Shown: in pieces, positions 34,298 to 48,536 of the stretch
Numbering within the stretch: position 1 is the stretch's first letter
How the letters are laid out: every line of letters begins with the position of its first letter
NCBI GenBank assembly: GCA_023053575.1
Contig: JAKZAP010000020.1
Coordinates: 21,166,764 to 21,230,763, forward strand
Source of the DNA: Branchinecta lynchi
Taxonomy: Eukaryota > Arthropoda > Branchiopoda > Anostraca > Branchinectidae
DNA length: 64,000 nt
Direction: 5' to 3'
Notes under the pieces: model-generated
What the model was told of the DNA's origin: nothing
Databases searched by the model: none
Seen by the model: the letters and a program-made list of their open reading frames with translations, nothing else
Made by a program: the position numbers and the translations under genes

Positions 34298-34307
34298 GTT
34301 GTGCATA
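34298..34307 (+). other. hAT target duplication and left hAT end, cut by the Polinton
   Basis: GTTGTGCA at 34298-34305 equals GTTGTGCA at 50877-50884. The TA at 34306-34307 is the start of the hAT-like element whose remainder resumes at 47929. The Polinton target TGCATA (34302-34307) overlaps both. Confidence 0.8.
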
Positions 34308-34893
34308 AGTAGTATATAATACCGGCTCCCACTCCACCCTCCCCCCAATTTCAAAACCCCATTTTAACATCAATTTCTTAAATTTTAACATCCTTTTTAC
34401 CAAATTATCCCCCTTTTTAAGAACATTTTTATTTTCTTAATTCCAAAATAAAGGATACAAGAAATGAGAATATTACCCTTTACTACATATAAAATACTAC
34501 AATATACTACTACTTCTTTTTTTTTTACATTTTTCATTTTTTATTCAAATATTACTGAGTAAACAGTTCTAAATCCACATATGTTTCTTTGTTCTTGTTT
34601 TCGCGTACAATCGGTTGCAAAACTAGATTTTTCTTTAAAAGTAATTCGTTAGCAATGGCATTATATTTCTGAGTTATAAACAAATCACATGGTTTGTCAT
34701 TATGATTAATAACTACAACCAACTTATCACCATATTTTGTCTTAGCAATTCTCATTTTAACGATAGTATATTTCAATCCTAGAACTAGTTCTTCTTTCCT
34801 GATTGTCTCATTGTATTTATTCATTCTGATTGTATTCAAGACTTCCTTTGTGGACTCCATTTATTAGGGGATGATTTTATTAAATAAAAATCC
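34308..34893 (+). repeat. Polinton left terminal inverted repeat
   Basis: 586 bp, starting AGTAGTATATAATACCGG. Matches the reverse complement of 47338-47922; the T-run near 34517-34526 has 10 T against 9 A on the right. Contains a full gene (34552-34860). Confidence 0.95.
34552..34860 (-). CDS. TIR-borne Polinton protein, 102 aa, left copy
   Basis: Identical to the product of 47371-47679, because the gene lies wholly inside the TIR. The pattern is a beta-rich small protein: ELVLGLKYTIVKMRIAKTKYGD, then KLVVVI and DLFITQKYN. I recognise this as like a small protein that recurs in animal Polintons with a Y-x-V..R..TKYG..VV..DLFLPKRY style core, possibly an OB-fold or nucleic-acid-binding protein. 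That function is inference only. The start is preceded by CCCCTAATAAATGG, the element's common start motif. It is transcribed outward, toward KLF exon 4. Confidence 0.8.
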   Translation of the reverse strand: MESTKEVLNTIRMNKYNETIRKEELVLGLKYTIVKMRIAKTKYGDKLVVVINHNDKPCDLFITQKYNAIANELLLKKNLVLQPIVRENKNKETYVDLELFTQ

Positions 34894-35432
34894 CAATCGC
34901 TTTGAAACATCTGGTAATAGAAACCAACCACGTTTATCATATAAATGCGATAGATACAAACGCAGTATTGAGTTTGCATGATGATATGATGATTACCGAT
35001 TTTGAACTTTATAAAATATTTTTGCAAAACCCCACACCCCCAGACTTTGAAAATTAAGAGGTGTGATGTTGGTACACCCCGATTGGTGTAGTGTTTGTGG
35101 TGATGTGGCCTTAGTCTGGGGGGCCCTGAACGGGGAACCCGCAAGTTTTTATTACCATCCCACTATCGAGAAACAGAAACTGCGGTCAGTGGGATTCGAA
35201 GGTCTGAATGGTGATGAGTCAACGTTCGGCCGAGCGTTGAGCCACTACACCAAGGGTCCTTGTTCAATTCGCACAAGTTTCCGAGTTAAGATGAGATTGT
35301 GTTAGTCACGCCGGAGACTGTAATTACATCCCAAATTGGCGGCGAGACCTTTGAATGACGCAGCTCATTAATGCGCGTATGAAATAAAGATCTGTTTGAC
35401 AGTTAGGAAACAATATTCAGTATAGCAATAGA
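34894..35432. other. Non-coding Polinton segment with a tRNA-like sequence
   Basis: No ORF with motifs. On the minus strand, 35265-35190 reads as an A-box-like TTGGTGTAGTGGCTCAACGC followed by a B-box-like CTTCGAATCCC about 50 bases later, as in a tRNA gene or the head of a tRNA-derived SINE. The anticodon arm does not fold properly, so it is not a functional tRNA. Confidence 0.4.
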
Positions 35433-35852
35433 CTATATGTTTGGTAATTTCTCTTGACTTTTTATAGATTTATTACAATATTTATAGCCATTCAGACGGA
35501 CTTGTTTCATATATTTTTCGCGAGGAAAAAATCGAAAGGTTTTACGCATCTCTGTTTCTCTCTGAATTACCTCCTCAATTGTTAACTGTCCGCATTTTAG
35601 CATTGACAACAACTCAGTATAAAAATCATAAATAGTCCTAAATTCTGCTTTTCTATCAGCAATGCTTAATTGCTTTTCAATTATTTCGATGATAACAGCA
35701 CCCAAACTTAAAGAAGCTAAAGGTAGCACTAGAAACGCAGACATTCCTGCTGCCGAAAAGAGGAATTTGAATACAAGTAAGCTATTACTTATACGATTGT
35801 AGTACTTGTAACTGCGACGGTAAACATACATTTTCTTTTCTAATTCTTCCAT
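35433..35852 (-). CDS. Small two-TM membrane protein of the Polinton
   Basis: 139 residues. A basic, tyrosine-rich N-terminus (about 1-22) is followed by two hydrophobic stretches at about 23-41 and 42-58 (SLLVFKFLFSAAGMSAFLV, then LASLSLGAVIIEII) that could form a membrane hairpin. A charged helical C-terminal half follows. The layout recalls SLATT-like hairpin proteins, which occur in some Polintons, but I cannot confirm the family. The start lies in TTATATAATAAATGG. It is divergent from the polymerase gene, with the 86-bp repeat array between them. Confidence 0.65.
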   Translation of the reverse strand: MEELEKKMYVYRRSYKYYNRISNSLLVFKFLFSAAGMSAFLVLPLASLSLGAVIIEIIEKQLSIADRKAEFRTIYDFYTELLSMLKCGQLTIEEVIQRETEMRKTFRFFPREKYMKQVRLNGYKYCNKSIKSQEKLPNI

Positions 35853-35897
35853 TTATTATATAATAAAATTGTTTCAGAAATTATTTGATTGAATGAA

Positions 35898-36275
35898 AGG
35901 TTCGCGATTCGGAACACATCCGCCACCTGCTAAACTGTATGGAATCTTTCTTGACTGATCGGAGAGAATCTAGATAGCCCTTGCTCCGTGAAACGCAAAA
36001 CACATCTGCTATCTACGGAACTGTACTGAAACGTTCTTGACTGATCGGAGAGAATCTAGATAGCGCTTGCTCCGTGAAACGCAAAACACATCTGCTATCT
36101 ACGGAACTGTACTGAATCTTTCTTGACTGGTCGGAGAGAATCTAGATAGCGCTTGCTCCGTGAAACGCAAAACACATCTGCTATCTACGGATCTGTACTG
36201 AAACTTTCTTGACTGATTGGAGAGAATCTAGACAGCGCTTGCTCTGTGAAACGCATACTGAAACCAGTGCTTTTC
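35898..36275. repeat. 86-bp tandem array between divergent Polinton genes
   Basis: Units are marked by TTGACTGATCGGAGAGAATC at 35951, 36037, 36123 and 36209, an exact spacing of 86. Each unit contains TAGATAGC...GCTATCTA inverted words and CTTGCTCCGTGAAACGC. A degenerate copy precedes the first. Its position upstream of both the polymerase and the two-TM gene suggests a control region or replication-related site; that is inference. Confidence 0.85.
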
Positions 36276-36334
36276 TTTACGGCTGAGAAAACTCAGACGG
36301 GAGAAATTCATTAATAAAAATGTTCCCCTATTAA

Positions 36335-39300
36335 ATGATGAATACTGCAGAGGTTATTCAGGTTTGTAAAAGGGTTATATCAAACAACAAAGCGGTTATA
36401 CAAAGATTATCGCTATACACATATAATGAACTGCGGACTTATGCGAAAATTAATAAAATCAAAAGAAATGGAGCTAAGAAACATGAAATAACAAATAATA
36501 TAATAAACCATCTTAATAAGTATATTTTGATAGCTGAAGATAAAATTAAAATTGAACGCAGAAACGAAAGAACTCATAATAAGAACAGACCATCCGACTA
36601 CAAACCAGAACCGAGATTACGAACGATTCTGGAAGATGAGATAAAAGAAAATAATATCACCATTACAAAACTAAAACAAGAATACAATGATAACAAAGAA
36701 AAAGAGACAAGCGAATTAAAGAATTTTCTGAAAAACAAGAACCTATCAACTCGCGGAAACCGAGAAGAAGTACTAAAAAGAGTTGGAGAATACTATAATA
36801 ATATTATTACCAAACATAAAGATTCCGTACAGAAAAATAGAGATATCATAAGAGATCAAACAGAAAGACGTGATAACAGTAGACAGAAACCAATTGGTTT
36901 ATCAACTCTCTTCATAAATAAGAAAAAAATCAAAGAAGAAAAATTAATTCCTGATCATTTATTTAGAACTGAAGAAGAAAAACAACCTACTATCTCTAGG
37001 GAAAATGAGAAATTCGCAGATTTGAGACGAAGAATGAATGAACTTTATCAGTATAGAGTTCAGTTTGTAACTCGTGTTATTTTCCATCGACAGGAGAATG
37101 TTGAAGAAGTAGTAGTATATTACAACAGTACTTCTTGGATTTTAAATAAAAATAGCATTCTTACTCATAATCATTTGGATGATAATAACAAGAGACTTAG
37201 TTCTTTAAGTAATACCCCTCGATCTGGGCTACAATTTAGTCGGTATGAAGGAATTGATTATAGGATGACACGAATAGAATCTTACATGGGAGGAACGTTT
37301 AAAATACTGCCAGATTTCGTAAAAAATAAAAGAGCTTGCTTGAATATTGAAAATAACGACCACAAATGTTTCCTTTGGTCTATCTTAGCAAATCTACATC
37401 CAGCTAAGGATCATCCTGAAAGAATTTCGAAATATAAACAATATGAGAACGAATTTGATTTCGAAGGGGTTACCAACTTCCCAATGGATACTAAAGATAT
37501 ACACAAATTTGAAAATAGATACAACATTAAGATTTGTTTATTTCAAACTGAAAAAGAGAAAATTATCAGAAGTCATATACTAAAAAGTACAATCAATGGC
37601 AAAACAGCTAAACATGTTATTAATTTATTATATTTCGATAATCATTATGTACTGGTAAAGGATCTGAGCAGATTAGTTGGTAGTCAAATCTCTAAAAATA
37701 AAACAAAGACATACCTATGCACTTTTTGCGGAAGGCATTTTACAAAAGAAGAACAATATGAAAAACATGAAAGTAAAAATAATTGCGAAGATCCTGATAT
37801 AATAATGCCTCCTGAAGGTTCAAGTATACAATATAAAAATATTGCAAAACAAATGAAAGTACCTTATTGCATAATAGCAGACTTTGAGTCTTATAACGAA
37901 GAATACAATCAGGTAAACGGAAAGAAAACAATAAAAGTAGCCAAACAGAAACCATTTGCTTACGGATTTCAGGTATGCTGTTCCTTTGATACAAACCAGA
38001 ACAAATACTACGATTATTTCGGTGAAGACGCTGCAGAACATTTTGTTAAAACCGTTACAAAAGTATCCACAGAAATTGCAAACAAATATGAAAGCAGACA
38101 AAGAAACCATACTTATACCAATGCAGAAATTACCGAAAAATGGAAAAATCTAATGAATAAGACTTGTCACATCTGTACAACTGAAATTACTGAAAATCCT
38201 CACTTTGATCACGATCACATGACAGGAGAAGATAGGGGATTTGCTCATGCTGAATGTAATATGAAATACAGGATTCCTAGGCATATCCCGGTAGTAATGC
38301 ATAATTTATCTAAATATGATTCCCATCTGTTTGTTAGAGAATTGATACCTGATAACGGAATTTTTGAAAGTGCAGAAAGTTTCATATCATTCTCGAAATC
38401 AATAAGTATAAGAAAGACGGATACGGAAATAAAATATGAGATCCGGTTTATAGATTCGATTAGATTTATGGCTTCATCTTTAGACAAACTATCAGCAAAT
38501 TTAGCGAAATGTGATTGCAAAGTACCTTGTAATCATCTAAGAGAGAATTTCAAGTACACATCGAATAGTTTCAATAACGATGAAGAATTCAAAGAAATAA
38601 TTAAAAAAGGGGTATATCCGTATGAATTCGTAGACAGTTTCGATAAAATGAATTGTACAAACTTACCATCCATAGAAAGCTTTTATTCTAGGTTGACAGG
38701 GAAAGGTATTGACAAAAGTGATTATAAAAGAGCGGTATCTATATGGAAACAATTTAACTGTAAAACATTACTTGATTATACCAAGTTGTACCTAAAAAGT
38801 GATGTGTTAATTCTATCAGATGTTGTGGAGAATTTCAGGAATGTGTGTATACATAATTATGATCTGGATCCACTTCATTACTTCTCAGCTCCTGGGTTGA
38901 CATGGGATTCTTTCTTAAAGCATTCAAAAGTAGAACTACCACTATTCTCGAAGGAAGACATGTATACATTCATTGAAAAGGGGATAAGAGGTGGTGTATC
39001 CCAATGTATAAAAAGATACGCAAAAGCAAATAATAAATATACAAGTGATTATAATAAGCATAAACCATCTAATTATTTAATGTATTTAGACGCTAATAAT
39101 TTATATGGGTGGGCGATGTCGCAGAATTTACCAGCGAATGATTTCCAATTCATTTCCATACCGGATGATTTGAAAGAAAGGAATGAATACGAATCAATCG
39201 AGTATTACAACCATCTAAAAACTCATATCAAGTCGGTGATTACGATTAAGTCGGTGAGACAAGATGTAGGTGCTATATATGAAGTAGATTTAGAATATCC

Positions 39301-40345
39301 AAAAGAACTACACGAATTACACAAGGATTTACCATTAGCACCCGAACACTTTAACGGTAAGCTATGTACCACAGTATTAGATAAAACCAACTATGTAGTT
39401 CACCACAGGAATCTAGAATTCTATTTACAAAACGGTTTGATATTGAAGAGAGTACACAGAATACTAGGATTCACTGAAAGTGCTTACTTAAAAGGATATA
39501 TAGACCACAACACAGCACTTAGAACTAAAGGTACAAATGATTTTGAGAAGGATTTCTTTAAGCTTATGAATAATGCTTGCTTTGGAAAAACTATGGAAAA
39601 CGTAAGGAAGCGAGCGGATATGGAAATAATAACGGATGATGCAACAAGAGAAAAAATAATAAAGAAACCCAACTTTAAATCTGAAATAATATTCAGTGAA
39701 AACTTTTCAGTAGCAAGAATGTCAAAGGAAAAGATAAAATTAGACAAACCAATGTATATCGGCTTTGCTGTATTGGAACTATCCAAGTTATTGATGTATG
39801 AATTCCATTATGATTATATGAAGCCTAAATATGGAGATAAAATTGATTTGTGTTATATGGACACTGATTCTTTCATATATGATATTAGAACTGAAGATTT
39901 TTATCAAGATATCAAACAGGATTTGAATGAGAGGTTCGATACATCTGATTATGCGAAAGATAATCCATATAGGTTTCCTAGTGTAAATAAGAAAGTGATA
40001 GGAATGATGAAAGATGAATTAGGTGGACAGGTTATGACAGAGTTTGTTGGATTACGATCAAAAGTATATGCTTATTTAAAGGACAACCAAGACCCTTCAA
40101 AGGCTAGCAAAAAACTGAAAGGAATAAAAACCAATATAGTTAAAGATAAAATTACGATTCAAAACTATAAGGATGTACTGTTTGGTAAAACGGAAAACCT
40201 TTCTATAACCCAGTATAACTTAAGATCATACAAGCACAATATGTTTCTAGAAGAACAGAATAAAAAAGCGTTAGATCCTAAGGATGATAAAAGGATAGTA
40301 ACAAGCGATAAAATACACACTTTACCTTTAGGTTATAAACATTAA
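36335..40345 (+). CDS. Protein-primed family B DNA polymerase of the Polinton
   Basis: 1336 residues, start in CCCCTATTAAATG. The N-terminus has two SAP-like DNA-binding motifs (about 26-60 and 125-156). A Cys-His domain (C345 in CFLWSIL, H437 in NHYVLV) resembles an OTU/papain-like fold. A C2H2 finger starts at C462. The exonuclease motifs are ExoI ADFES (D516, E518), ExoII NLSKYDSH (D662) and ExoIII YLKSDVLIL (D823). An HNH/endonuclease VII-like insert lies between them (CHIC at 611, HDHMTGEDRGFAHAECN). The polymerase motifs are LDANNLYG (D919), KLMNNACFGKTMEN (K1076) and YMDTDS (D1176, D1178). It copies the element genome using a terminal protein as primer. All catalytic residues are present and no stop interrupts the frame. 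Confidence 0.96.
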   Translation: MMNTAEVIQVCKRVISNNKAVIQRLSLYTYNELRTYAKINKIKRNGAKKHEITNNIINHLNKYILIAEDKIKIERRNERTHNKNRPSDYKPEPRLRTILEDEIKENNITITKLKQEYNDNKEKETSELKNFLKNKNLSTRGNREEVLKRVGEYYNNIITKHKDSVQKNRDIIRDQTERRDNSRQKPIGLSTLFINKKKIKEEKLIPDHLFRTEEEKQPTISRENEKFADLRRRMNELYQYRVQFVTRVIFHRQENVEEVVVYYNSTSWILNKNSILTHNHLDDNNKRLSSLSNTPRSGLQFSRYEGIDYRMTRIESYMGGTFKILPDFVKNKRACLNIENNDHKCFLWSILANLHPAKDHPERISKYKQYENEFDFEGVTNFPMDTKDIHKFENRYNIKICLFQTEKEKIIRSHILKSTINGKTAKHVINLLYFDNHYVLVKDLSRLVGSQISKNKTKTYLCTFCGRHFTKEEQYEKHESKNNCEDPDIIMPPEGSSIQYKNIAKQMKVPYCIIADFESYNEEYNQVNGKKTIKVAKQKPFAYGFQVCCSFDTNQNKYYDYFGEDAAEHFVKTVTKVSTEIANKYESRQRNHTYTNAEITEKWKNLMNKTCHICTTEITENPHFDHDHMTGEDRGFAHAECNMKYRIPRHIPVVMHNLSKYDSHLFVRELIPDNGIFESAESFISFSKSISIRKTDTEIKYEIRFIDSIRFMASSLDKLSANLAKCDCKVPCNHLRENFKYTSNSFNNDEEFKEIIKKGVYPYEFVDSFDKMNCTNLPSIESFYSRLTGKGIDKSDYKRAVSIWKQFNCKTLLDYTKLYLKSDVLILSDVVENFRNVCIHNYDLDPLHYFSAPGLTWDSFLKHSKVELPLFSKEDMYTFIEKGIRGGVSQCIKRYAKANNKYTSDYNKHKPSNYLMYLDANNLYGWAMSQNLPANDFQFISIPDDLKERNEYESIEYYNHLKTHIKSVITIKSVRQDVGAIYEVDLEYPKELHELHKDLPLAPEHFNGKLCTTVLDKTNYVVHHRNLEFYLQNGLILKRVHRILGFTESAYLKGYIDHNTALRTKGTNDFEKDFFKLMNNACFGKTMENVRKRADMEIITDDATREKIIKKPNFKSEIIFSENFSVARMSKEKIKLDKPMYIGFAVLELSKLLMYEFHYDYMKPKYGDKIDLCYMDTDSFIYDIRTEDFYQDIKQDLNERFDTSDYAKDNPYRFPSVNKKVIGMMKDELGGQVMTEFVGLRSKVYAYLKDNQDPSKASKKLKGIKTNIVKDKITIQNYKDVLFGKTENLSITQYNLRSYKHNMFLEEQNKKALDPKDDKRIVTSDKIHTLPLGYKH

Positions 40346-40612
40346 ATTCAAGTACCTACTTAAAAACTTCAAGTACCTACTTAAAAACTTCAAGTACCTA
40401 CTTAAAAAATTCAAGTACCTACTTAAAAAATTCAAGTACCTACTTAAAAAATTCAAGTACCTACTTAAAAAATCAAGAACCTACTTAAAAAATTCAAGTA
40501 CCTACTTAAAAAATTCAAGTACCTACTTAAAAAATTCAAGTACCTACTTAAAAAATTCAAGTACCTACTTCAAAACTTCAAGTATATACTTAAAATACTC
40601 AAGTAAATCTTA
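40346..40612. repeat. 21-bp tandem array of small palindromes
   Basis: About 11 units of 21 bp plus two degraded units. Each carries AAGTACCTACTT, i.e. AAGTA and its inverse TACTT around CC, starting at 40350, 40371, 40392, 40413 and onward. Spacers are AAAAATTC or AAAAACTTC; one unit reads AAGAACC and is one base shorter. It follows the polymerase stop directly and precedes the ATPase gene. Confidence 0.9.
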
Positions 40613-40636
40613 TAATGAAAAATTCTTCCTAAATAA

Positions 40637-41314
40637 ATGAATGAAAAGGCTCCAATCAAAGTCTATGATTTTAGTGAAAAGAACACTTATCAGAATAAGC
40701 ACGACCTTGCACCTCAGTGGCCATTTAGACTCTTAATTTGTGGTAGTTCTGGAACAGGGAAAACTAACCTTCTTTTGAATTTAATTTATGAATATCTTTG
40801 TTTCAACCGAATATACTTGTATGCAAAAGATCTTGAAGAAGATAAGTATCAAGACCTTATAACCAATTTAACCACTTTGGAGTCACAATGCAAATCGAAA
40901 GTCTTAACAGTAAGTAACAATCTTGATGATATTGTCGATGTTGACGACTTAGACCCTGAATACCAAAACTTGATTATCTTTGACGATTTTGTCACTGAAA
41001 AAGACCAGAAGAAAATAGAAGATTTATTCATAAGAGGAAGAAAGAAAAATGCCTCAATTATTTACTTGTCTCAAAGCTATCATAAAACGCCAAAGGTGGT
41101 AAGGCTCCAGTGCAATTATTTTGCATTCTTTCAGTGTTCTAATCCAAAAGAAGTAAAATTAATAAGACAAAGCCATGTATCCAGTATAGACGATGAAAAA
41201 TTTCTCAAACAATTCGAGACTGCAACCAAGGGCTACGGTTTTTTCTTCATAGATTTAAAAATAAAAGATAAAACCCTTAAGTACAGGAAAAACTTTGAAA
41301 AATTTACCGGATAA
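40637..41314 (+). CDS. A32-like genome-packaging ATPase
   Basis: 225 residues, FtsK/HerA-type ATPase. Walker A is GSSGTGKT (residues 36-43) after FRLLIC; Walker B is LIIFDDF (D116, D117). SIIYLSQSYHKTP after Walker B fits sensor residues of the A32 packaging family used by poxviruses, polintoviruses and virophages. It is expected to pump DNA into the capsid. Start in TCCTAAATAAATG, just after the 21-bp array. Length is usual for Polinton ATPases. Confidence 0.93.
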   Translation: MNEKAPIKVYDFSEKNTYQNKHDLAPQWPFRLLICGSSGTGKTNLLLNLIYEYLCFNRIYLYAKDLEEDKYQDLITNLTTLESQCKSKVLTVSNNLDDIVDVDDLDPEYQNLIIFDDFVTEKDQKKIEDLFIRGRKKNASIIYLSQSYHKTPKVVRLQCNYFAFFQCSNPKEVKLIRQSHVSSIDDEKFLKQFETATKGYGFFFIDLKIKDKTLKYRKNFEKFTG

Positions 41315-41330
41315 TTTATTTCTATAATAA

Positions 41331-41954
41331 ATGAATAAATTTGGTAGTGTTGGAAAAAAGGTTAGTAATGAATCGAATGAAAAGAGAGTTACTGATGACA
41401 ACGGTAATATTAACCTACAAGGTAAGAGAATTATTATGTTAGGGGATGCGAAAGCTGACCAGGACGCTATTAGCTTAAGATCTATGACTGTGATTATGAA
41501 TCAATTTAAAGAACAAATGACTGCAGGACAAGTGCAAGCCAACCAATACTTTAGCGAAGATATCAACAGATTAACTGCGATAGATGATTCTCCTGATAAT
41601 TTATTGGTAAGGATTAAAGATAAAGGGTTATTTGTAAAAGAAATAGTTCGAGTTAATGATAAAGAGATTAACGCTGAAAACAAGTTGATAACAAATGTTC
41701 AAAACCCTAGAAACAAAAATGATGCTGTTAATTTAGCAACGTTAACTATGAATCTTTTAGATTATGACAAAAAGCTTCTTGGGCAACACACCCATAACGG
41801 TATAATTGAAGGAAAGATTGCTGGTCAAAAAACTCGTATCGATAATATTGAAAGAGCAGTAGTAAATATTTTAAAAAGGCTTCTAGAGCTAGAGCTAAAA
41901 CCTGTTGACAAACCATTCGTTACCAGAATAGAAAAAATGATGGCTGGTAAATAA
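41331..41954 (+). CDS. Putative fibre-like virion protein
   Basis: 207 residues, start in TCTATAATAAATG, 16 nt after the ATPase stop. It has two motifs of a kind seen in phage and virus tail-fibre proteins: GKRIIMLGDAKADQDAISL (about 32-49) and NVQNPRNKNDAVNLATL (about 123-139). In such proteins the sequence runs 'v..P.n..DAv..' before a trimeric coiled coil. A short leucine-rich helix near 175-200 could trimerise. The placement between ATPase and core-protein genes fits a structural role. Function is inferred from this motif similarity only. Confidence 0.5.
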   Translation: MNKFGSVGKKVSNESNEKRVTDDNGNINLQGKRIIMLGDAKADQDAISLRSMTVIMNQFKEQMTAGQVQANQYFSEDINRLTAIDDSPDNLLVRIKDKGLFVKEIVRVNDKEINAENKLITNVQNPRNKNDAVNLATLTMNLLDYDKKLLGQHTHNGIIEGKIAGQKTRIDNIERAVVNILKRLLELELKPVDKPFVTRIEKMMAGK

Positions 41955-41984
41955 ATTTTATAAGATAAATTAATTCCCTAATAA

Positions 41985-42542
41985 ATGGTTGAAACAATGG
42001 AGTATACAGTTTATTTGTCAAAGCTTCAGAAAGGAAAGCTGAAGAAATGCTTTGGTGCTAAACAAAAATGTCAGATACGTGTTAGTCATAGTAGACAAAA
42101 TGAACGAGAACCAGTTAAGTTACTTTTAAGTAAACGACAAATTGATAAAATTGAAACATGTAAAATGAATAATAAGGGCTGTGATATTGATGTATCATAC
42201 AAACAGATGAAAGAAGCGATTCAAAAGGGTGGATTACTTCCATTTTTAATACCGCTAGCAATTACCCTTGGTAAGGCAGCTTTAACAAGTGGTGCTGCTG
42301 CTTTGGGTACATTCGCTGGTAAGAAAATTATGGATAAAATGACCAACACAGGTGGAGCGCTAAAACTTCCTGGAACACAAAAAGTTGTGGGTAATGGGTT
42401 ACGTGGGAAGGAAACCGATGATGTCAACATAGGTGGAGCGCTTACACTCCCTGGAACACAAAAAGTTGTGGGTAATGGAGTACGTGGAAGGCCTAGGAAG
42501 TCAAAAAACGGGGACATCAAAAAAGAAGCAAAAGTAAAGTAG
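41985..42542 (+). CDS. pX/pVI-like basic virion protein, likely feeds the protease frame
   Basis: 185 residues, start in CCCTAATAAATGG. The N-terminal half is basic with four cysteines. After IQKGG comes a long hydrophobic stretch LLPFLIPLAITLGKAALTSG (about 84-103), continuing to about 112. This resembles the membrane-active or DNA-condensing segment of adenovirus pVI/pX-type core proteins. The C-terminus has two copies of a 20-residue block, GGALxLPGTQKVVGNGxRG, and a basic tail. Near its end, 42503-42509 reads A AAA AAC in the coding phase, and the -1 frame is open from there into the protease ORF. The product may thus occur alone and as a frameshifted extension. The pX-like assignment is inference. 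Confidence 0.65.
   Translation: MVETMEYTVYLSKLQKGKLKKCFGAKQKCQIRVSHSRQNEREPVKLLLSKRQIDKIETCKMNNKGCDIDVSYKQMKEAIQKGGLLPFLIPLAITLGKAALTSGAAALGTFAGKKIMDKMTNTGGALKLPGTQKVVGNGLRGKETDDVNIGGALTLPGTQKVVGNGVRGRPRKSKNGDIKKEAKVK
42503..42509 (+). promoter_or_regulatory. Candidate -1 ribosomal frameshift site (core protein to protease)
   Basis: A AAA AAC, split as (TC)A AAA AAC in the zero frame of 41985-42542: the X XXY YYZ pattern with the right phase. MMTV uses this heptamer for gag-pro. The -1 frame has no stop from here to the protease ATG at 42566. No obvious downstream pseudoknot was seen by eye. Confidence 0.6.
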
Positions 42543-42565
42543 GACCTCTAACCAATTTTGATATT

Positions 42566-42910
42566 ATGGATGCATTAGGGAGTATACCACAGTTTAGAGG
42601 TGTGTTCTCTTTAGATACGCTACCCAAACATATAAACGATTCGGAATGTGGTGTAATCAACTATGACAAACGTGGAATGCCTGGAACACATTGGGTTGCC
42701 TATTGTAATCTACCTGAATCCCCCTATGTCGAATTTTTCGATTCTTTCGGTATTCCTCCAGGAAAAGAAATAGTTAAATATCTAAAAAATTCAAAGAAAA
42801 AAATAGCTTATGAAAATCTTGCTGTTCAAAATATAGATGAATTAAACTGTGGTTTTCACTGCATTTCCTACATCCAGCGCAAAATGAAGTTGGTAGCTTT
42901 TCGTTTATAA
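42566..42910 (+). CDS. Adenain-like cysteine protease
   Basis: 114 residues from the first ATG. Catalytic residues by pattern: H42 (GTHWVAY), D59 (EFFDSFG), Q88 (VQNID) and C95 (CGFHC). FRGVFSLDTLP and ECGVINYD precede them, as in Polinton and adenovirus maturation proteases, which cleave capsid proteins in the virion. It lacks the TAAATG motif found at the other gene starts. The frame is open upstream to at least 42509, and codons before the ATG (42545-42565) read like the normal start of this family, so translation probably enters by -1 frameshift from the preceding gene. Confidence 0.85.
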   Translation: MDALGSIPQFRGVFSLDTLPKHINDSECGVINYDKRGMPGTHWVAYCNLPESPYVEFFDSFGIPPGKEIVKYLKNSKKKIAYENLAVQNIDELNCGFHCISYIQRKMKLVAFRL

Positions 42911-42927
42911 AAATTGTTTTCTAATAA

Positions 42928-43095
42928 ATGGAGATTTATTGTATGAAATGTAAAAAGAGCACTGATACTGAATCAATGTTTAAGGCAGTGTCACAAAAAA
43001 ATAATGTTCCAATGCTGAAAGGGAATTGTGTTATTTGCGGATCGAGGAAAAATCGCTTTTTAAAAAAAACCTCAACGCAGAAACAGATATTTTAA
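42928..43095 (+). CDS. Short zinc-ribbon ORF, 55 aa, upstream of integrase
   Basis: ATG at 42928 in TTTCTAATAAATGG. The product has two C-x2-C pairs, YCMKCKK (C5, C8) and NCVICGS (C34, C37), followed by RKNRFLKK. This is a compact zinc ribbon similar in pattern to small proteins of giant viruses and Polintons (DUF5679-like, from memory). Its last part overlaps the integrase frame, and 43062-43068 is a slippery A AAA AAA in its zero phase. It may be a stand-alone protein and also the N-terminal part of integrase. Confidence 0.75.
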   Translation: MEIYCMKCKKSTDTESMFKAVSQKNNVPMLKGNCVICGSRKNRFLKKTSTQKQIF

Positions 43096-43997
43096 AGACA
43101 TATTATTCTAATTATTCAGGTGTGGATGATATTTACAGAAAATTAAAAGAAAATGGTGTTAAGGTTTCCAAGGATAAAATGAAAAATGTGTTGCAAAATG
43201 AGAATGTGTATACGTTACACAAACCTTCCTATCATAACTTTGAAAGGAGGCGAGTGTATGTTCACTATGTTGATGAGCAATGGCAAGCTGATTTAGTTGA
43301 CATGCAGAAATATAAAAAAGAAAATAATAAAACAAATTACATTTTAACTGTTATTGATTGCTTTAGTAAATATGCTTGGTGTATCCCTCTGAAAGACAAA
43401 ACGGGTGCTGAAATAATAAAAGCATTCAGTGTTATATTTAAAGAAAGAATTCCTAAGAAACTACAAACTGATAAAGGTAAAGAATTTGTGATGAGAAATG
43501 TTCAATCTTTTTTGAAAAATAGCGGCATACACTGGTTTGCATCTGAAAGCGAATTGAAAGCGCAAATTGTAGAACGATTCAACAGAACGCTAAAAGAAAA
43601 GTTATGGAAATATTTCACTCACAATAACACTACTAATTGGATTGATATTTTACCTTTATTTGTGAGTAATTATAATAACTCGTACCACCGTTCAATACAA
43701 ATGAAACCAGCTGATGCTAGTAAAAAGGTTAATCAGAAAAAGGTTTTTAGTGCTCTGTTTCCTCCAGTAGATGACTACAAAATCACAGGAAACGTCAAAG
43801 TAGGGGATTTAGTCAGAATTAAAAAAGAAAAAAGTATTTTCGATAAAGGATATTTACCTAATTATACGGATGAAGTATTTCAGATAGCAACCATCAGACC
43901 TACCATTCCCATTTCTTATGAAATATCTGACAAAAGTGGGGAATTAATTCAAGGAGGGTTTTATGAAAAAGAACTTTCAAAATTTATTATGAAATAA
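43026..43997 (+). CDS. Retrovirus-like integrase, no ATG start
   Basis: The frame opens before 43026 (the first codon given is TTG) and the first ATG lies inside the conserved region, so normal initiation is unlikely. Taking 43026 as residue 1, the DDE triad is D89 (WQADLVDM), D149 (QTDKGKEF) and E183 (AQIVERFNRTLK). A C-terminal SH3-like part includes GDLVRIKKEKSIFDKGYLPN. It cuts and joins element ends to target DNA, making the 6-bp duplication. It lacks the usual HHCC domain; the zinc-ribbon ORF joined by -1 frameshift could supply a zinc-binding N-terminus. A lost base in the A8 run would give the same picture. Confidence 0.88.
   Translation: MCYLRIEEKSLFKKNLNAETDILKTYYSNYSGVDDIYRKLKENGVKVSKDKMKNVLQNENVYTLHKPSYHNFERRRVYVHYVDEQWQADLVDMQKYKKENNKTNYILTVIDCFSKYAWCIPLKDKTGAEIIKAFSVIFKERIPKKLQTDKGKEFVMRNVQSFLKNSGIHWFASESELKAQIVERFNRTLKEKLWKYFTHNNTTNWIDILPLFVSNYNNSYHRSIQMKPADASKKVNQKKVFSALFPPVDDYKITGNVKVGDLVRIKKEKSIFDKGYLPNYTDEVFQIATIRPTIPISYEISDKSGELIQGGFYEKELSKFIMK
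43062..43068 (+). promoter_or_regulatory. Candidate -1 ribosomal frameshift site (zinc ribbon to integrase)
   Basis: A AAA AAA, split as (TT)A AAA AAA in the zero frame of 42928-43095, within an A8 run. A -1 slip enters the integrase frame directly (next codon 43068-43070). No clear stimulatory stem was noticed. Confidence 0.55.
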
Positions 43998-44013
43998 AAT
44001 TACTTGTATATAA

Positions 44014-44838
44014 ATGGATTCAAGACGCTTGAGTGATATGTTATCGGATATAGTGAAGAACAGAGAAGTTCAGAGAAGAAAGGTTCAACAAAATGAGATG
44101 GAGAAGGCAGGATTTCGGGAATATGCTTCAGAGTTAAACGCTCCAGTTATTATAGCACAAAAAGAAAACACTAAAGACACCATCAAAAAATTACAAGAGA
44201 ACACTGAAATGATCATAAATAAACTACAGGAAGGTGATGATAGTTCAAGAACAAGGCTTCTCCAGATAGGTGAAACGAATCAACCATATCAGCTTCCAGT
44301 TTCAGGGGTAGAAATGCAGTCAACCGCTTTAGAAGCATCTCCAACAAGTATAAAAGTTGTTGATCTGAATGAAGGTGTTGATAAAGAGTTATTAAAAGCA
44401 CTTAATGTGAAATATAGAGATAATCATAGAAGATATGAAGGGGAATATTTTGAGATGCCTCATTTTTATTATGATAACCCAGAGAATATAGAAGATGCTT
44501 TGGCTGAATTAACACCGATAAGTCAAAGTTATGGTGGTCTGAAAAGTAAAAGTTATAGTTCTAGTAAGTATGATAAAATTATTTTATTTATACAAGACTA
44601 TAAGGATAGATTAAGAAAAATTCAATCTAGTATACCCTTTATCAGACAACAAGGAACTGGAATATTTATGAATTGTGATGAAATGATTTCAAAATTATAC
44701 ACTTTGATAGGTAGCAGAGTAAACGGAAATACATCTGATGAGGTGAGAAATGAAGCTATTGATATTTTGGATTCGTTAATGCGAAATAAATTTCTTACGA
44801 AGAGAAATTACAATTCAATATATAAAAAATATTTCTAA
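44014..44838 (+). CDS. Conserved Polinton protein of unknown function
   Basis: 274 residues, start in TGTATATAAATGG. The N-terminal third is charged and likely coiled-coil (ENTKDTIKKLQENTEMIINK). The C-terminal part has KYDKIILFIQDYKDRLRKI, then QQGTGIFM and GSRVNGNTSDEVRNEAIDI. I recognise the C-terminal pattern (L-I-x-x-R-x-N-G-N near S-x-E-V-x-N-E) from hypothetical proteins near capsid genes of animal Polintons. No function is known to me. Its stop abuts the minor capsid start (4-nt spacing), so the genes are tightly packed. Confidence 0.6.
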   Translation: MDSRRLSDMLSDIVKNREVQRRKVQQNEMEKAGFREYASELNAPVIIAQKENTKDTIKKLQENTEMIINKLQEGDDSSRTRLLQIGETNQPYQLPVSGVEMQSTALEASPTSIKVVDLNEGVDKELLKALNVKYRDNHRRYEGEYFEMPHFYYDNPENIEDALAELTPISQSYGGLKSKSYSSSKYDKIILFIQDYKDRLRKIQSSIPFIRQQGTGIFMNCDEMISKLYTLIGSRVNGNTSDEVRNEAIDILDSLMRNKFLTKRNYNSIYKKYF

Positions 44839-44841
44839 TAA

Positions 44842-45564
44842 ATGGTGTTGTTAAACATTGAAGGTAATGAAAGTATCATTGATATAACATTTAGTCAACC
44901 AATCGAATTGAATCGTAATTGGGATTATGAAATAGGTTTGAATCAGTGTACTTTGTGGTATTCATGGCATAATATAAGTGATAAATTTGGAAATAATACA
45001 TTTCAATACAGGAAAGATGAAGATAATAATGCAACAGAATGGATGAATGTTACTATTCCTAATGGGATGTATAACGATGATTGTTTGAATTATTTTTTGT
45101 GTCAGTATTTTGATACCCCAAAAGATAAATGTCCTATTGTAATTTCATCCAATCCAGCATCTATGAGATTTGTCATACTATTACAAGAAAAATATGTGTT
45201 TAGATTTAATAGTGACTTGTGTCAGATTTTAGGATTTGAGAAGGATAGTGAGATATCTAAGAAAATCAATGAAGGTACAAAGCTTCCTAATATAACAAGA
45301 AGCGTTGATAAAATTCAAATTCACTGCTCTCTCGTAAACAGTTCTATCGTAAACAAAAGTAAATCAGATGTCATTTGGACATTTGTTCCTAATACAGAAC
45401 CGGGTTGTCAAATTGTTGAGAATCCTAGACAATTAATCTACCTTCCTATTAATACAAAAGACTTTATTTACTCCTTGAGAATGACAATTACTGATCAGTT
45501 GGGAAGACCTATCGATTTGAATGGTGATAACGTTGGATACGTGCTGCATTTAAGAAAAGCTTAA
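44842..45564 (+). CDS. Minor capsid protein (penton-like single jelly roll)
   Basis: 240 residues, start in TTTCTAATAAATGG; the motif overlaps the stop of the previous gene. It has features of the Polinton minor capsid protein: MNVTIPNGMYNDDCLNYFLC near 68-87, QILGFEKDSEIS, then IQIHCSLVNSSIVN, WTFVPNTEPGCQIVENPRQL and DQLGRPIDLNGDN before a final hydrophobic strand. These map to strands of a single jelly roll that forms the pentamers at capsid vertices. Length and order match the family. No break is seen. Confidence 0.85.
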   Translation: MVLLNIEGNESIIDITFSQPIELNRNWDYEIGLNQCTLWYSWHNISDKFGNNTFQYRKDEDNNATEWMNVTIPNGMYNDDCLNYFLCQYFDTPKDKCPIVISSNPASMRFVILLQEKYVFRFNSDLCQILGFEKDSEISKKINEGTKLPNITRSVDKIQIHCSLVNSSIVNKSKSDVIWTFVPNTEPGCQIVENPRQLIYLPINTKDFIYSLRMTITDQLGRPIDLNGDNVGYVLHLRKA

Positions 45565-45596
45565 AGGATTAGTGAAATAAAATTATTTACCTATAA

Positions 45597-45953
45597 ATGT
45601 TGATTAATAATAAGCGATTACTTTATAAAAGGCAGTATGGAAGTGGAATCGGTAGTGTATTCAAAAACATTGTTAATTCCCAGTTATTTCAAACGTCAGC
45701 AAAACAAATAAAAGATGGGGCTATGTCAATGTATAATAATATTATTAAACCGAGATTTGAGTTGTTGAAAAACAGAGCAATAGAATATGGGAAAGATCTG
45801 ATCAATGTAAACAAGAAGGAACTCATTGATGTAATTGGAAACAAAAAATCGATGAAGGATCTTATCGGTACAAATAAAAGGATTTTAAATCAAAGAAGTC
45901 AGGACTTGATCAAAACGTTAATGACTGGAAATGGATTAAAGATTCTGAAATAA
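45597..45953 (+). CDS. Small pVI-like or minor virion protein
   Basis: 118 residues, start in CCTATAAATG. The N-terminus has RQYGSGIGSVFKNIVNSQ followed by an amphipathic helix, and the end has TGNGLKIL. A Gly-Ser-Gly site before an amphipathic helix between minor and major capsid genes recalls adenovirus pVI, a protease-cleaved, membrane-lytic protein. That similarity is by layout only; sequence identity cannot be claimed. Confidence 0.5.
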   Translation: MLINNKRLLYKRQYGSGIGSVFKNIVNSQLFQTSAKQIKDGAMSMYNNIIKPRFELLKNRAIEYGKDLINVNKKELIDVIGNKKSMKDLIGTNKRILNQRSQDLIKTLMTGNGLKILK

Positions 45954-45983
45954 GTTTTATTTAATAATTTCTTTCTTATATAA

Positions 45984-47333
45984 ATGGCAGTAAATAAAGT
46001 TATCAGTCCGCAATGGAACATATTTGACGAACCGCTTGTGGATGATACAGTGGTTAAATATGAATTTAAAGAAATTCGAGAAACAGATGTGACTGTATCT
46101 AATAAATCAGAGTTTGAATTCGTAACAAAGAAATTAGATTCCTGGTTTTATCCAAGTGAAAGTTATCTTGATGTCAGTGTAAGAATAGTAAACGAAGATG
46201 GGACTCCTATAGCTGCAACCGATGTTGCTACTTTAACGAATAATGGATTTAATTTATTCAGTACCGCTGAGTATGTAATAAACGATGAATCGGTTGAAAA
46301 AATTAATCATGTTGGTATTACAACTACCGTTACAAAGTTGATTGAATACTCTGATGATTATTCTAGAAGTGCAGCAAGAAATCATTTCTGGTATAAGGAT
46401 TATAATCAAGGAAAAGAAATTAATCCTGTTATTGCTTCGTTTACTGCAGGGGCTGCAGCAGGGGGTGGAACAGTCAGTTTGAGAAATAATAATAATTATA
46501 ATAAAGGATTTGAAAAAAGATATAACAGAACAAAGAGCAGTAAATTAGTAAATATGTATTTACCATTATCAGAATTGTTTGGATTTCTGAAAGGAAACAA
46601 ACGATTCTTCAGAGGTGCATCGCATAAATTATTTCTAAGAAGAAATGATGATAACAACATGATTATAAGAAATGGAAATACTAATTTCAAAGTAGTAATC
46701 GAGTATTTATCCTGGAAGATCCCTATTGTAGCTCCTAGTATCGAAATGATGAGTGAATTAGAAAAGGATCTTGCTAAGGATAAAAAGCATAATCTGATGT
46801 GGGAAGCATGTAATAGTTATAAAAGTGATGTTAGTCAGAATAAGGAACACACTTGGAAAGTTATATCTGAGAGAAACAATCCAACAAAAGTAGTTGTGAT
46901 GCTACAGAAAAATGAAAAGCATAACAATCAATTAATGAATAATATGGTGTTTGATCATATGAATTTAACAGACATAGAACTTAGAATTAATGGGGATAAA
47001 TATCCTGAAGAACCACTTAAATGTGATTTTAGCGATGATAAATGTAAATACTCAAATCTTTACAATAGGTTCATACATTTGGGTTATAAACAATTAGCAT
47101 TTGATACTGGTAGTGTTGTTAGTATAGAAGAATTTAAAGAAGTATATCCACTATTCTGTTTCGGTGTTTCCAAACACGAATCAAGTATATATAATGGAAC
47201 AACTGCTGATATTGAAATAAGTTTAACATTAAAACACGCTCAGCCTGTACCATATAATATTTACTGTGTTATATATTATGAAAGAAAAGCTACATTAGGT
47301 ATTATTAACAAAAATATGTATGTGAGTTTGTGA
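45984..47333 (+). CDS. Major capsid protein (double jelly roll)
   Basis: 449 residues, start in CTTATATAAATGG. The N-terminal part has the Polinton MCP pattern: FVTKKLDSWFYPSESYLDV, ATLTNNGFNLFSTAEYVIND and KLIEYSDDYSRSAARNHFWY. Later, ARG-rich and HNNQLMNN segments precede DIELRINGDKYPEEPL and HAQPVPYNIYCVIYYERKATL at the end. Double-jelly-roll capsid proteins form hexon-like capsomers in polintoviruses, virophages and adenoviruses. Usual length, no break. This and the minor capsid, protease and ATPase genes make a complete morphogenesis module. Confidence 0.92.
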   Translation: MAVNKVISPQWNIFDEPLVDDTVVKYEFKEIRETDVTVSNKSEFEFVTKKLDSWFYPSESYLDVSVRIVNEDGTPIAATDVATLTNNGFNLFSTAEYVINDESVEKINHVGITTTVTKLIEYSDDYSRSAARNHFWYKDYNQGKEINPVIASFTAGAAAGGGTVSLRNNNNYNKGFEKRYNRTKSSKLVNMYLPLSELFGFLKGNKRFFRGASHKLFLRRNDDNNMIIRNGNTNFKVVIEYLSWKIPIVAPSIEMMSELEKDLAKDKKHNLMWEACNSYKSDVSQNKEHTWKVISERNNPTKVVVMLQKNEKHNNQLMNNMVFDHMNLTDIELRINGDKYPEEPLKCDFSDDKCKYSNLYNRFIHLGYKQLAFDTGSVVSIEEFKEVYPLFCFGVSKHESSIYNGTTADIEISLTLKHAQPVPYNIYCVIYYERKATLGIINKNMYVSL

Positions 47334-47337
47334 GTCT

Positions 47338-47922
47338 GGATTTTTATTTAATAAAATCATCCCCTAATAAATGGAGTCCACAAAGGAAGTCTTGAATACA
47401 ATCAGAATGAATAAATACAATGAGACAATCAGGAAAGAAGAACTAGTTCTAGGATTGAAATATACTATCGTTAAAATGAGAATTGCTAAGACAAAATATG
47501 GTGATAAGTTGGTTGTAGTTATTAATCATAATGACAAACCATGTGATTTGTTTATAACTCAGAAATATAATGCCATTGCTAACGAATTACTTTTAAAGAA
47601 AAATCTAGTTTTGCAACCGATTGTACGCGAAAACAAGAACAAAGAAACATATGTGGATTTAGAACTGTTTACTCAGTAATATTTGAATAAAAAATGAAAA
47701 ATGTAAAAAAAAAGAAGTAGTAGTATATTGTAGTATTTTATATGTAGTAAAGGGTAATATTCTCATTTCTTGTATCCTTTATTTTGGAATTAAGAAAATA
47801 AAAATGTTCTTAAAAAGGGGGATAATTTGGTAAAAAGGATGTTAAAATTTAAGAAATTGATGTTAAAATGGGGTTTTGAAATTGGGGGGAGGGTGGAGTG
47901 GGAGCCGGTATTATATACTACT
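47338..47922 (-). repeat. Polinton right terminal inverted repeat
   Basis: 585 bp, inverse of 34308-34893 with a single length difference in an A-run. It ends CCGGTATTATATACTACT, followed by the target duplication TGCATA (47923-47928). Confidence 0.95.
47371..47679 (+). CDS. TIR-borne Polinton protein, 102 aa, right copy
   Basis: Same protein and start motif (CCCCTAATAAATGG) as 34552-34860. Here it follows the major capsid gene with a 37-nt gap and is transcribed toward the right flank. Two identical outward-facing genes per element double the dose, and they can stay identical because the TIRs are corrected together. Confidence 0.8.
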   Translation: MESTKEVLNTIRMNKYNETIRKEELVLGLKYTIVKMRIAKTKYGDKLVVVINHNDKPCDLFITQKYNAIANELLLKKNLVLQPIVRENKNKETYVDLELFTQ

Positions 47923-48536
47923 TGCATAGGCATGGGCACTGTTCTGTTTTTGCATTCAAACAGGAACAGGCAGAAACAGGTCACATAAGAACAGAAACAG
48001 AAAGAAAACAGGAAACTTGAAAACAGGTCCTGTTCTGTTTTAACAGAAATGATGACTTCGAAAACAGAAACAGCTGTTAAACAGGCAGAAAAAAACAGAA
48101 CCGGATGTTTAAAACAGTTTTTTTTTTATTATTTGATTTCCCGTATTTTTGTATTATGTTTATGGCAGAGTTCACCTATAGTTTGCCCTGTACCATGAAG
48201 TATCTTAAATAGTTTTTCCTTGCACCGCACAGATGCCTTTCTTCGAGTTCATTTCATAGAACAACAAATATCTTGGTCCAGAATTCCAGCTGCCTTTTTT
48301 ATGAGTTACACTTTTTCCCGATGGAAAATGAGCCATGGAAGTTTCGTTTGTCTTAACAACAAATTTTCGCATAGCCTACCTTTCCACTTGGATTGTTTGT
48401 AATAGTGATCGGTAATAAACTAAAATTCAAAGTTAAGCAAGCTTCACTTCGTGACAGTGGTTGGTGATGATGGTCATTTTTTTGTGAGGGGAGGGTCGCG
48501 AAGGATCCATGTTAAATCAGAATACCGAATAGCTTT

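Follow-up and report, generated by a model that had tools for sequence, protein, structure and literature searches.

The gag-pro junction of MMTV carries the slippery heptamer A AAA AAC. In betaretroviruses gag-pro-pol is expressed by two −1 frameshifts, and A AAA AAC is given as an astrovirus heptamer, according to the excerpted text of PMC3835772. For adintoviruses, slippery sites have been predicted in Penton genes, and a similar relation has been raised for potential Hexon-Adenain fusion proteins (PMC11071296, excerpt). This hypothesis resembles the case described here in that it concerns the same virus group, proposes slippery sites and has the adenain protease as one partner. It differs in pairing the protease with the major capsid protein and in resting on a prediction program; here core protein and zinc ribbon take the partner role, and the evidence comes from genomic copies and, for the integrase, also from other lineages. 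Adenain itself acts in virion maturation and has its own ATG; it is not known to be a frameshift product.

Particles of Polinton elements had not been observed by 2021, as stated in the excerpted text of PMC8097293. In the literature searched, we found no description of −1 frameshifting at the core/protease or ribbon/integrase junctions of Polintons, which does not prove that none exists, and the word "frameshift" is absent from the main text of PMC4028283. An earlier reading of the same DNA from its letters alone (the sequence-only reading) had known of no such description in Polintons; this is nearly right, the exception being the adintovirus Penton and Hexon-Adenain hypothesis, which concerns other junctions (PMC11071296, excerpt). 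Here we analysed the window, that is, the whole 64,000-nucleotide stretch of Branchinecta lynchi DNA, together with copies of its Polinton in the same genome and relatives in other lineages.

The element and its gene starts

The window contains a complete Polinton/Maverick element, delimited by terminal inverted repeats and a 6-bp target duplication (Table 1). Its gene set comprises a putative PolB, an A32-type ATPase, the core protein, an adenain-type protease, a DUF5679 zinc ribbon, an RVE integrase and a double jelly-roll capsid. Pfam matches in the element (rve, 2.5e-14; Pox_A32, 2.1e-13; DJR-like, 3.3e-26) cover the combination of RVE integrase, A32-type packaging ATPase and double jelly-roll capsid by which a Polinton is recognised. 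No PolB family matched the 1336-aa ORF in Pfam at E 0.1; motifs such as YMDTDS are visible in it and it matches the distant Polinton L011 at 6.6e-173, and with these signs we take it as a putative PolB. Likewise, no Pfam family matched the core-protein ORF, and the name "core protein" is that of the sequence-only reading.

Table 1. Coordinates of the Polinton and of the features at its two overlapping junctions (positions in the window).
Feature	Position	Strand	Remarks
Polinton/Maverick element	34308..47922	+	6-bp target-site duplication TGCATA, AGTAGTATATAA ends, inverted repeats
Left terminal inverted repeat	34307..34893	+	two blocks, 97% and 100% complementary; encodes 102-aa ORF
Right terminal inverted repeat	47338..47923	-	
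Core-protein ORF, 185 aa, zero frame	41985..42542	+	relatives P0068 (86%), P0069 (62%)
-1 open frame: core-tail overlap, protease N-terminus and protease	42497..42910	+	
Slippery heptamer A AAA AAC, in phase	42503..42509	+	zero-frame codons TCA AAA AAC
Candidate H-type pseudoknot, spacer 6 nt	42516..42601	+	S1 42516-42522/42556-42562; S2 42544-42551/42594-42601
PLTNFDI, N-terminal motif of protease, 5' of ATG	42545..42565	+	alignment, census, model
Protease ATG as listed	42566..42568	+	within helix 1, without TAAATG start motif
DUF5679 zinc-ribbon ORF, 55 aa	42928..43095	+	start motif TTCTAATAAATG, in 88/88 copies
Integrase frame, -1 relative to zinc ribbon	43005..43997	+	first in-frame ATG at 43179
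Second slippery run, in phase	43059..43068	+	T TTA AAA 43059-43065, A AAA AAA 43062-43068

Several repeats and one further ORF were observed within the element. The core protein contains a repeat of the form GGAL.LPGTQKVVGNG (window 42344-42496), with GGAL.LPG present in each unit, and the length of this repeat varies among copies L030-L117 through insertions of 93, 90 or 81 nt plus 3- and 9-nt steps. A tandem repeat with 21-bp spacing (40281-40656) extends from the end of the PolB ORF to the start of the ATPase, and a repeat with 86-bp spacing (35913-36255) lies near the left end of the element. The 207-aa ORF at 41331-41954 shows a weak match to the N-terminal domain of the phage T7 tail fibre (PF03906, 3.1e-5, 24.2 of 25.2 bits) and is a possible fibre protein.

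Gene starts of the element (34308-47922) read TAAATG, mostly TAATAAATG or TATAAATG. TAA directly precedes ATG at all 12 other starts taken as genes (10 on the plus and two on the minus strand, with the inverted-repeat ORF entered at both ends and antisense ORFs excluded), the background in the element being 14 of 299 plus-strand and 6 of 177 minus-strand ATGs. The poxvirus late-promoter/start signal is much like these starts, and TAAATG may possibly serve as a combined promoter and start; it is not mentioned in the Polinton-related literature among the matches listed. The sequence-only reading had claimed that the protease ATG at 42566 lacks the start motif of the other genes, and indeed ATT, not TAA, precedes it.

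The core/protease and zinc-ribbon/integrase junctions

At both junctions, an X XXY YYZ heptamer was found in phase within the overlap of two open reading frames. The core ORF terminates at a TAG at 42540-42542 and shares 46 nt with the protease frame, which opens after a TAG at 42494-42496, six bases 5' of the heptamer, and continues to the protease stop ending at 42910. The earlier statements that A AAA AAC stands in exact phase within the core ORF, and that the −1 frame is open through the protease ORF, were both borne out.

Judged from its sequence, the zinc-ribbon/integrase junction, which had escaped the sequence-only reading, is the same arrangement as the core/protease junction, with stronger cross-lineage evidence. 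The two frames overlap there by 91 nt. No ATG occurs in the integrase frame between 43005 and 43178, where TTG codons stand at 43026 and 43035, and the nearly invariant integrase residues Y15, G20 and K27 (aligned piece, 43104-43142) precede the ATG at 43179.

Codons 5' of ATG 42566 in the −1 frame read VGPLTNFDI. A regular-expression search recovered a PLTNFDI-like motif before FRGVF in 54 of 67 protease homologues, bearing out the earlier suggestion that the usual N-terminus of the family precedes this ATG; the expression failed in 12 (P0036 and P0055 being near variants by eye), and one homologue is without FRGVF. Among the eight closest homologues, the called protein is without the motif in P0001, P0003, P0004 and P0006, carries it in three and is unscorable in P0008. 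Such motif-less calls would be the pattern expected if start callers take an internal codon.

The −1 frame product was modelled from 42509 onwards with AlphaFold2 on an alignment of 63 sequences (mean pLDDT 91.9, pTM 0.85); in this model, helix 1 spans residues 16-23 and the Met of ATG 42566 is residue 20. ATG 42566 is probably not the real protease start, because PLTNFDI lies upstream, helix 1 would be cut and the TAA motif is absent. Near-cognate initiation was considered and rejected: between 42497 and 42565 the protease frame contains no ATG, CTG, GTG, TTG or ACG, the sole candidate codon being ATT at 42563.

The single protease sequence did not reach the Pfam cutoff (15.4 of 21.3 bits), and the family profile reached ASFV S273R (3.8e-9) and the homologous adenovirus adenain (PDB 1avp, 1.7e-8), with unrelated prolyl hydroxylases lower down at 3e-4. 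In the alignment H61 is invariant and C114 nearly invariant, and profile and His/Cys residues together identify the protein, at the sequence level, as an adenain-type cysteine protease (C5). Its homologues include P0007 and P0016, listed as coming from a mite and a spider, respectively.

Minimum-energy folding 3' of both slippery sites is ordinary (z −0.10 and 0.01). A home-made H-type scan revealed one candidate pseudoknot 3' of the core/protease heptamer, with stems AUCAAAA/UUUUGAU and ACCUCUAA/UUAGAGGU, which was equalled by 3 of 300 dinucleotide shuffles with spacers of 5-9 nt and by 6 of 300 with spacers of 1-11 nt. The synonymous change 42596 A>C, inside S2, is present in 59 of 88 copies and breaks the candidate; the best scan score then goes from −13.8 to −6.3, under a loop limit that omits the shortened second stem. 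At the integrase site the scan gave no knot beyond shuffles, 19 of 40 being equally good. The pseudoknot search proposed with the sequence-only reading thus yields a candidate at a fitting spacer, but not a conserved one, and on these sequences we lean against a conserved stimulatory pseudoknot at the core/protease site.

Copies in the genome and relatives in other lineages

Copies were collected by protein searches of the animal's own genome (576 Mb, 216 contigs). The protease query supplied the best 150 of 956 candidates, and two further queries supplied the best 150 matches each, with overlapping lists; junctions were read at 108 loci, including the window's own copy (L034). The core-to-protease offset was −1 at 97 loci, +1 at six, in frame at two and unscorable at three, and an in-phase heptamer was present at 94 of the 97 loci with the −1 offset (A AAA AAC at 93, A AAA AAT at one). 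An alignment of sister copies had been proposed as a check on the sequence-only reading, and its outcome favours that reading. For the ribbon-to-integrase junction, the offset was −1 at 98 of the 108 loci, +1 at four, in frame at three and not computed at three; A AAA AAA was found at 97 and T TTA AAA at 96 of the 98. Two offset scorings with different anchors disagree for a few decayed copies, L052 and L053 being scored +1 by one and −1 by the other at the integrase. Heptamer and −1 offset are thus conserved within one genome, and across lineages for the integrase only, at the protein level.

By chance, in-phase heptamers are frequent in this A-rich DNA. For the core/protease overlap, one appeared in 39% of shuffles by codon and 25% of shuffles by base, and for the ribbon/integrase overlap the figures are 42% and 11%, respectively; across the window AAAAAAC is not enriched (43 observed versus 44.5 expected). 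The heptamer alone is therefore weak evidence, and it gains weight because −1 offset and heptamer recur as they do in the copy survey. Protease identity among the copies seen is 87-100%, and their sequences indicate that the copies are a recent burst, for which reason their agreement does not amount to many independent trials.

The composition of the sample also affects these counts. Exceptions are over-represented, because some copies were picked for an unusual protease frame length (in the 20-copy batch, 14 copies have a protease frame of a length different from 137 aa, which was part of the reason for choosing them, and the same holds for 7 of the 80-copy batch), and badly decayed copies are under-represented, because all copies are best matches to a protease query. 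The protease open frame is 137 aa in most of the best 150 matches, and it exceeds 189 aa at a single place in the three overlapping lists of best 150 matches taken together.

Sister copies with both genes in one frame, or with a broken heptamer beside an intact protease, had been named in advance as evidence against a −1 fusion. Copies of the first kind are rare, with one clear case: L118 is a real in-frame copy whose core and protease share a 308-aa open frame, and its exact junction pattern occurs at at least one place genome-wide, a count without denominator. L125 also scores as in frame, but its core is decayed. Copies of the second kind are L052 and L053, in which the A run at the junction is shorter, the heptamer lost, the offset +1 and the protease frame open; a second AAAAAAC lies further upstream in their longer overlap, where a −1 shift would miss the protease. 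These two copies and L118 count against the reading, and the heptamer at nearly all −1 loci counts for it. In L054, a stop stands in the −1 frame 3' of the heptamer. In-frame ribbon/integrase junctions occur at at least 12 places genome-wide by exact pattern, again without denominator; L135, in frame in the 108-locus survey, lies outside these places.

Across 83 copies, the core repeat shows 104 in-frame length changes and no frame-breaking one, a result rendered partly trivial by frame-based selection, since five of the 88 copies had been removed for a shift or an early stop in the core. The core/protease overlap showed one in-frame deletion in the first sampling. Per-site diversity was 0.0076 for the overlap and 0.0034 for the heptamer, compared with 0.068 for the core repeats and 0.038 for the protease, and low diversity is not peculiar to the overlap (ribbon 0.014, integrase 0.017). 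A pN/pS-like ratio of 0.35 in the protease (42566-42880, 80 copies) indicates a constrained frame, as does 0.27 in the integrase stretch before the first ATG (43096-43178); the ribbon (0.57) and integrase 43179-43300 (0.75) are weakly constrained. The 56 nt before the protease ATG contain 3 synonymous changes, 4 replacements and 1 stop, too few to judge.

Relatives in other lineages carry the same domain pairs in the same order as the window's two junctions. P0027 is a core-protease fusion in a single frame, and five of 120 listed homologues (P0112, P0140, P0157, P0168 and P0175) are in-frame ribbon-integrase fusions with DUF5679 N-terminal; being in one reading frame, these proteins entail no minor product, unlike the window element. 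The core relatives P0068 and P0069 are separate proteins that end, as the window's core does, in KN plus ten residues, ends that are compatible with conservation of the heptamer across lineages; for this junction the evidence from other lineages is thus indirect and at the protein level.

Other fusions were also observed. P0083 joins protease and integrase in frame, and in P0109, P0107, P0128 and similar proteins the integrase is fused in frame to the parvovirus coat N-terminal domain PF08398. Such varied in-frame fusions suggest that the integrase has repeatedly been tethered to virion proteins.

Two integrase homologues bear on the age of the second overlap: P0071, 70% identical, starts MWLQEKSFFKKG, and P0149, 52% identical, starts MWLKKESFFKKQ. 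When these starts are read through possible codons one base later, they fit the ribbon end CGSRKNRFLKK at 11 of 11 positions in P0071 and 10 of 11 in P0149. None of the other 118 listed homologues exceeds 8 positions, and none of 5000 shuffles of the P0071 start reached 11; P0071 had been noticed by eye before the test, P0149 had not. As both proteins begin with a −1 reading of the ribbon end, the ribbon/integrase −1 overlap is very likely older than the burst.

Among the viral contigs scanned for relatives, none was confirmed. The scan of genome contigs returned 29 loci; those examined (L001-L015) are distant Polintons with mostly different gene order, in which an in-frame ATG stands at or before the matched protease or integrase start in 15 of 16 starts (11 loci). 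L001-L015 are Polinton-type integrase contigs within GTDB bacterial genomes (Nomurabacteria, Ignavibacteria, Limnohabitans and others), their presence there being probably due to contamination of the bins with eukaryotic or viral DNA. In L008 (4711-4739) and L007 (10142-10149), the protease frame begins within the end of the preceding ORF, which in L008 is the capsid by tblastn; the offset is +1, and an overlap of this kind could couple translation of the two genes.

Expression of the protease and integrase

We consider it likely that −1 ribosomal frameshifting adds the protease and the integrase to the C-termini of small proteins encoded upstream. The arguments are the frames, the heptamers, the missing starts, the conservation among copies and the in-frame fusion homologues, together with two other lineages in which the integrase shows this −1 overlap, as seen at the protein level. 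The sequence-only reading had proposed such a core-protease fusion for the protease; with the −1 offset at 97 of 108 loci this is the best explanation, against which stand the in-frame and heptamer-less copies.

According to this mechanism, the majority of ribosomes would end the core protein at 42540, and a minority would slip back one base on A AAA AAC to produce core-protease. Some 0.5 kb downstream, ribosomes on the zinc-ribbon ORF would produce ribbon-integrase by slipping at T TTA AAA or at the A AAA AAA that overlaps it. Through its tether to the core, the protease would reach the particle in few molecules and do its work there. Adenain cleavage sites contain a double glycine, and the repeated GGAL.LPG stretches of the core resemble them. 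We infer that the ribosome rather than the polymerase slips, that the fusions are the minor product and that the protease enters the particle by way of its core part.

The main rival, which we hold to be unlikely, is transcriptional slippage, in which RNA polymerase would gain or lose an A at the A6 and A8 runs and give one-frame fusion mRNAs with the same products as ribosomal slipping. Both junctions do contain A runs, and A8 is the better candidate of the two; however, A AAA AAC and T TTA AAA stand in exact ribosomal phase, and six A is a short run for polymerase slippage.

More doubtful still is separate initiation, with the protease starting from ATG 42566 (by reinitiation 23 nt after the core stop, or by leaky scanning) and the integrase from a TTG or from ATG 43179. 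The closeness of ATG 42566 to the core stop, the own ATG of the protease ORFs in many distant relatives and the two TTG codons of the integrase frame agree with it. Yet a protease begun at ATG 42566, which is without TAAATG, would lose the PLTNF that regular expression found in 54 of 67 homologues and would have helix 1 cut, and an integrase begun at ATG 43179 would drop conserved residues.

Improbable, in our view, is a founder lesion, by which the burst arose from an element with frame breaks whose enzymes were supplied in trans by other copies. It would account for a state common to most sampled copies in a recent burst, but it would need a lesion of the same sign at two junctions, and the continuing constraint on the protease frame and the integrase N-terminal stretch speaks against it, as does the recurrence of the integrase overlap at 70% and 52% identity. 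Assembly error, suggested by the homopolymers at both junctions, was rejected as having practically no chance, the offset being identical at 97 and 98 of 108 places, and P0068 and P0069, from other database sources, being likewise separate proteins. An intron joining the frames was judged unlikely, given the purine-rich stretch 5' of the junction and the description of intact vertebrate elements as lacking introns (PMC8097293, excerpt).

Read as −1 ribosomal frameshifting, the element resembles a betaretrovirus in having a structural ORF followed by a protease in the −1 frame, a further −1 junction to an integrating enzyme, and typical heptamers. Unlike a betaretrovirus, the Polinton is a DNA element with an adenain-type cysteine protease, no conserved pseudoknot was found at its sites, and its second shift begins in the zinc-ribbon ORF, which is separate and carries a start of its own, so that the shifts are not on one polyprotein. 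Nor is an aspartic protease joined to gag, as in retroviral gag-pro-pol, and the likeness is one of expression strategy only.

We regard as evenly balanced the broader proposal that this Polinton lineage independently reached a betaretrovirus-like double −1 scheme. Protease and integrase would then exist only as minor fusions to the core and the zinc ribbon and hence be particle-borne, and the integrase shift would be old (homologues down to 52%), alternating with in-frame fusions. For annotation, this means that gene calls in this clade may truncate proteases and integrases whose true N-termini would lie in another frame. If the proposal is true, ratio-controlled −1 frameshifting would be placed in a eukaryotic double-stranded DNA element, and obligate minor fusions would provide a direct and testable answer to how protease and integrase are loaded into the capsid, as well as a sign of an element built for particle production.
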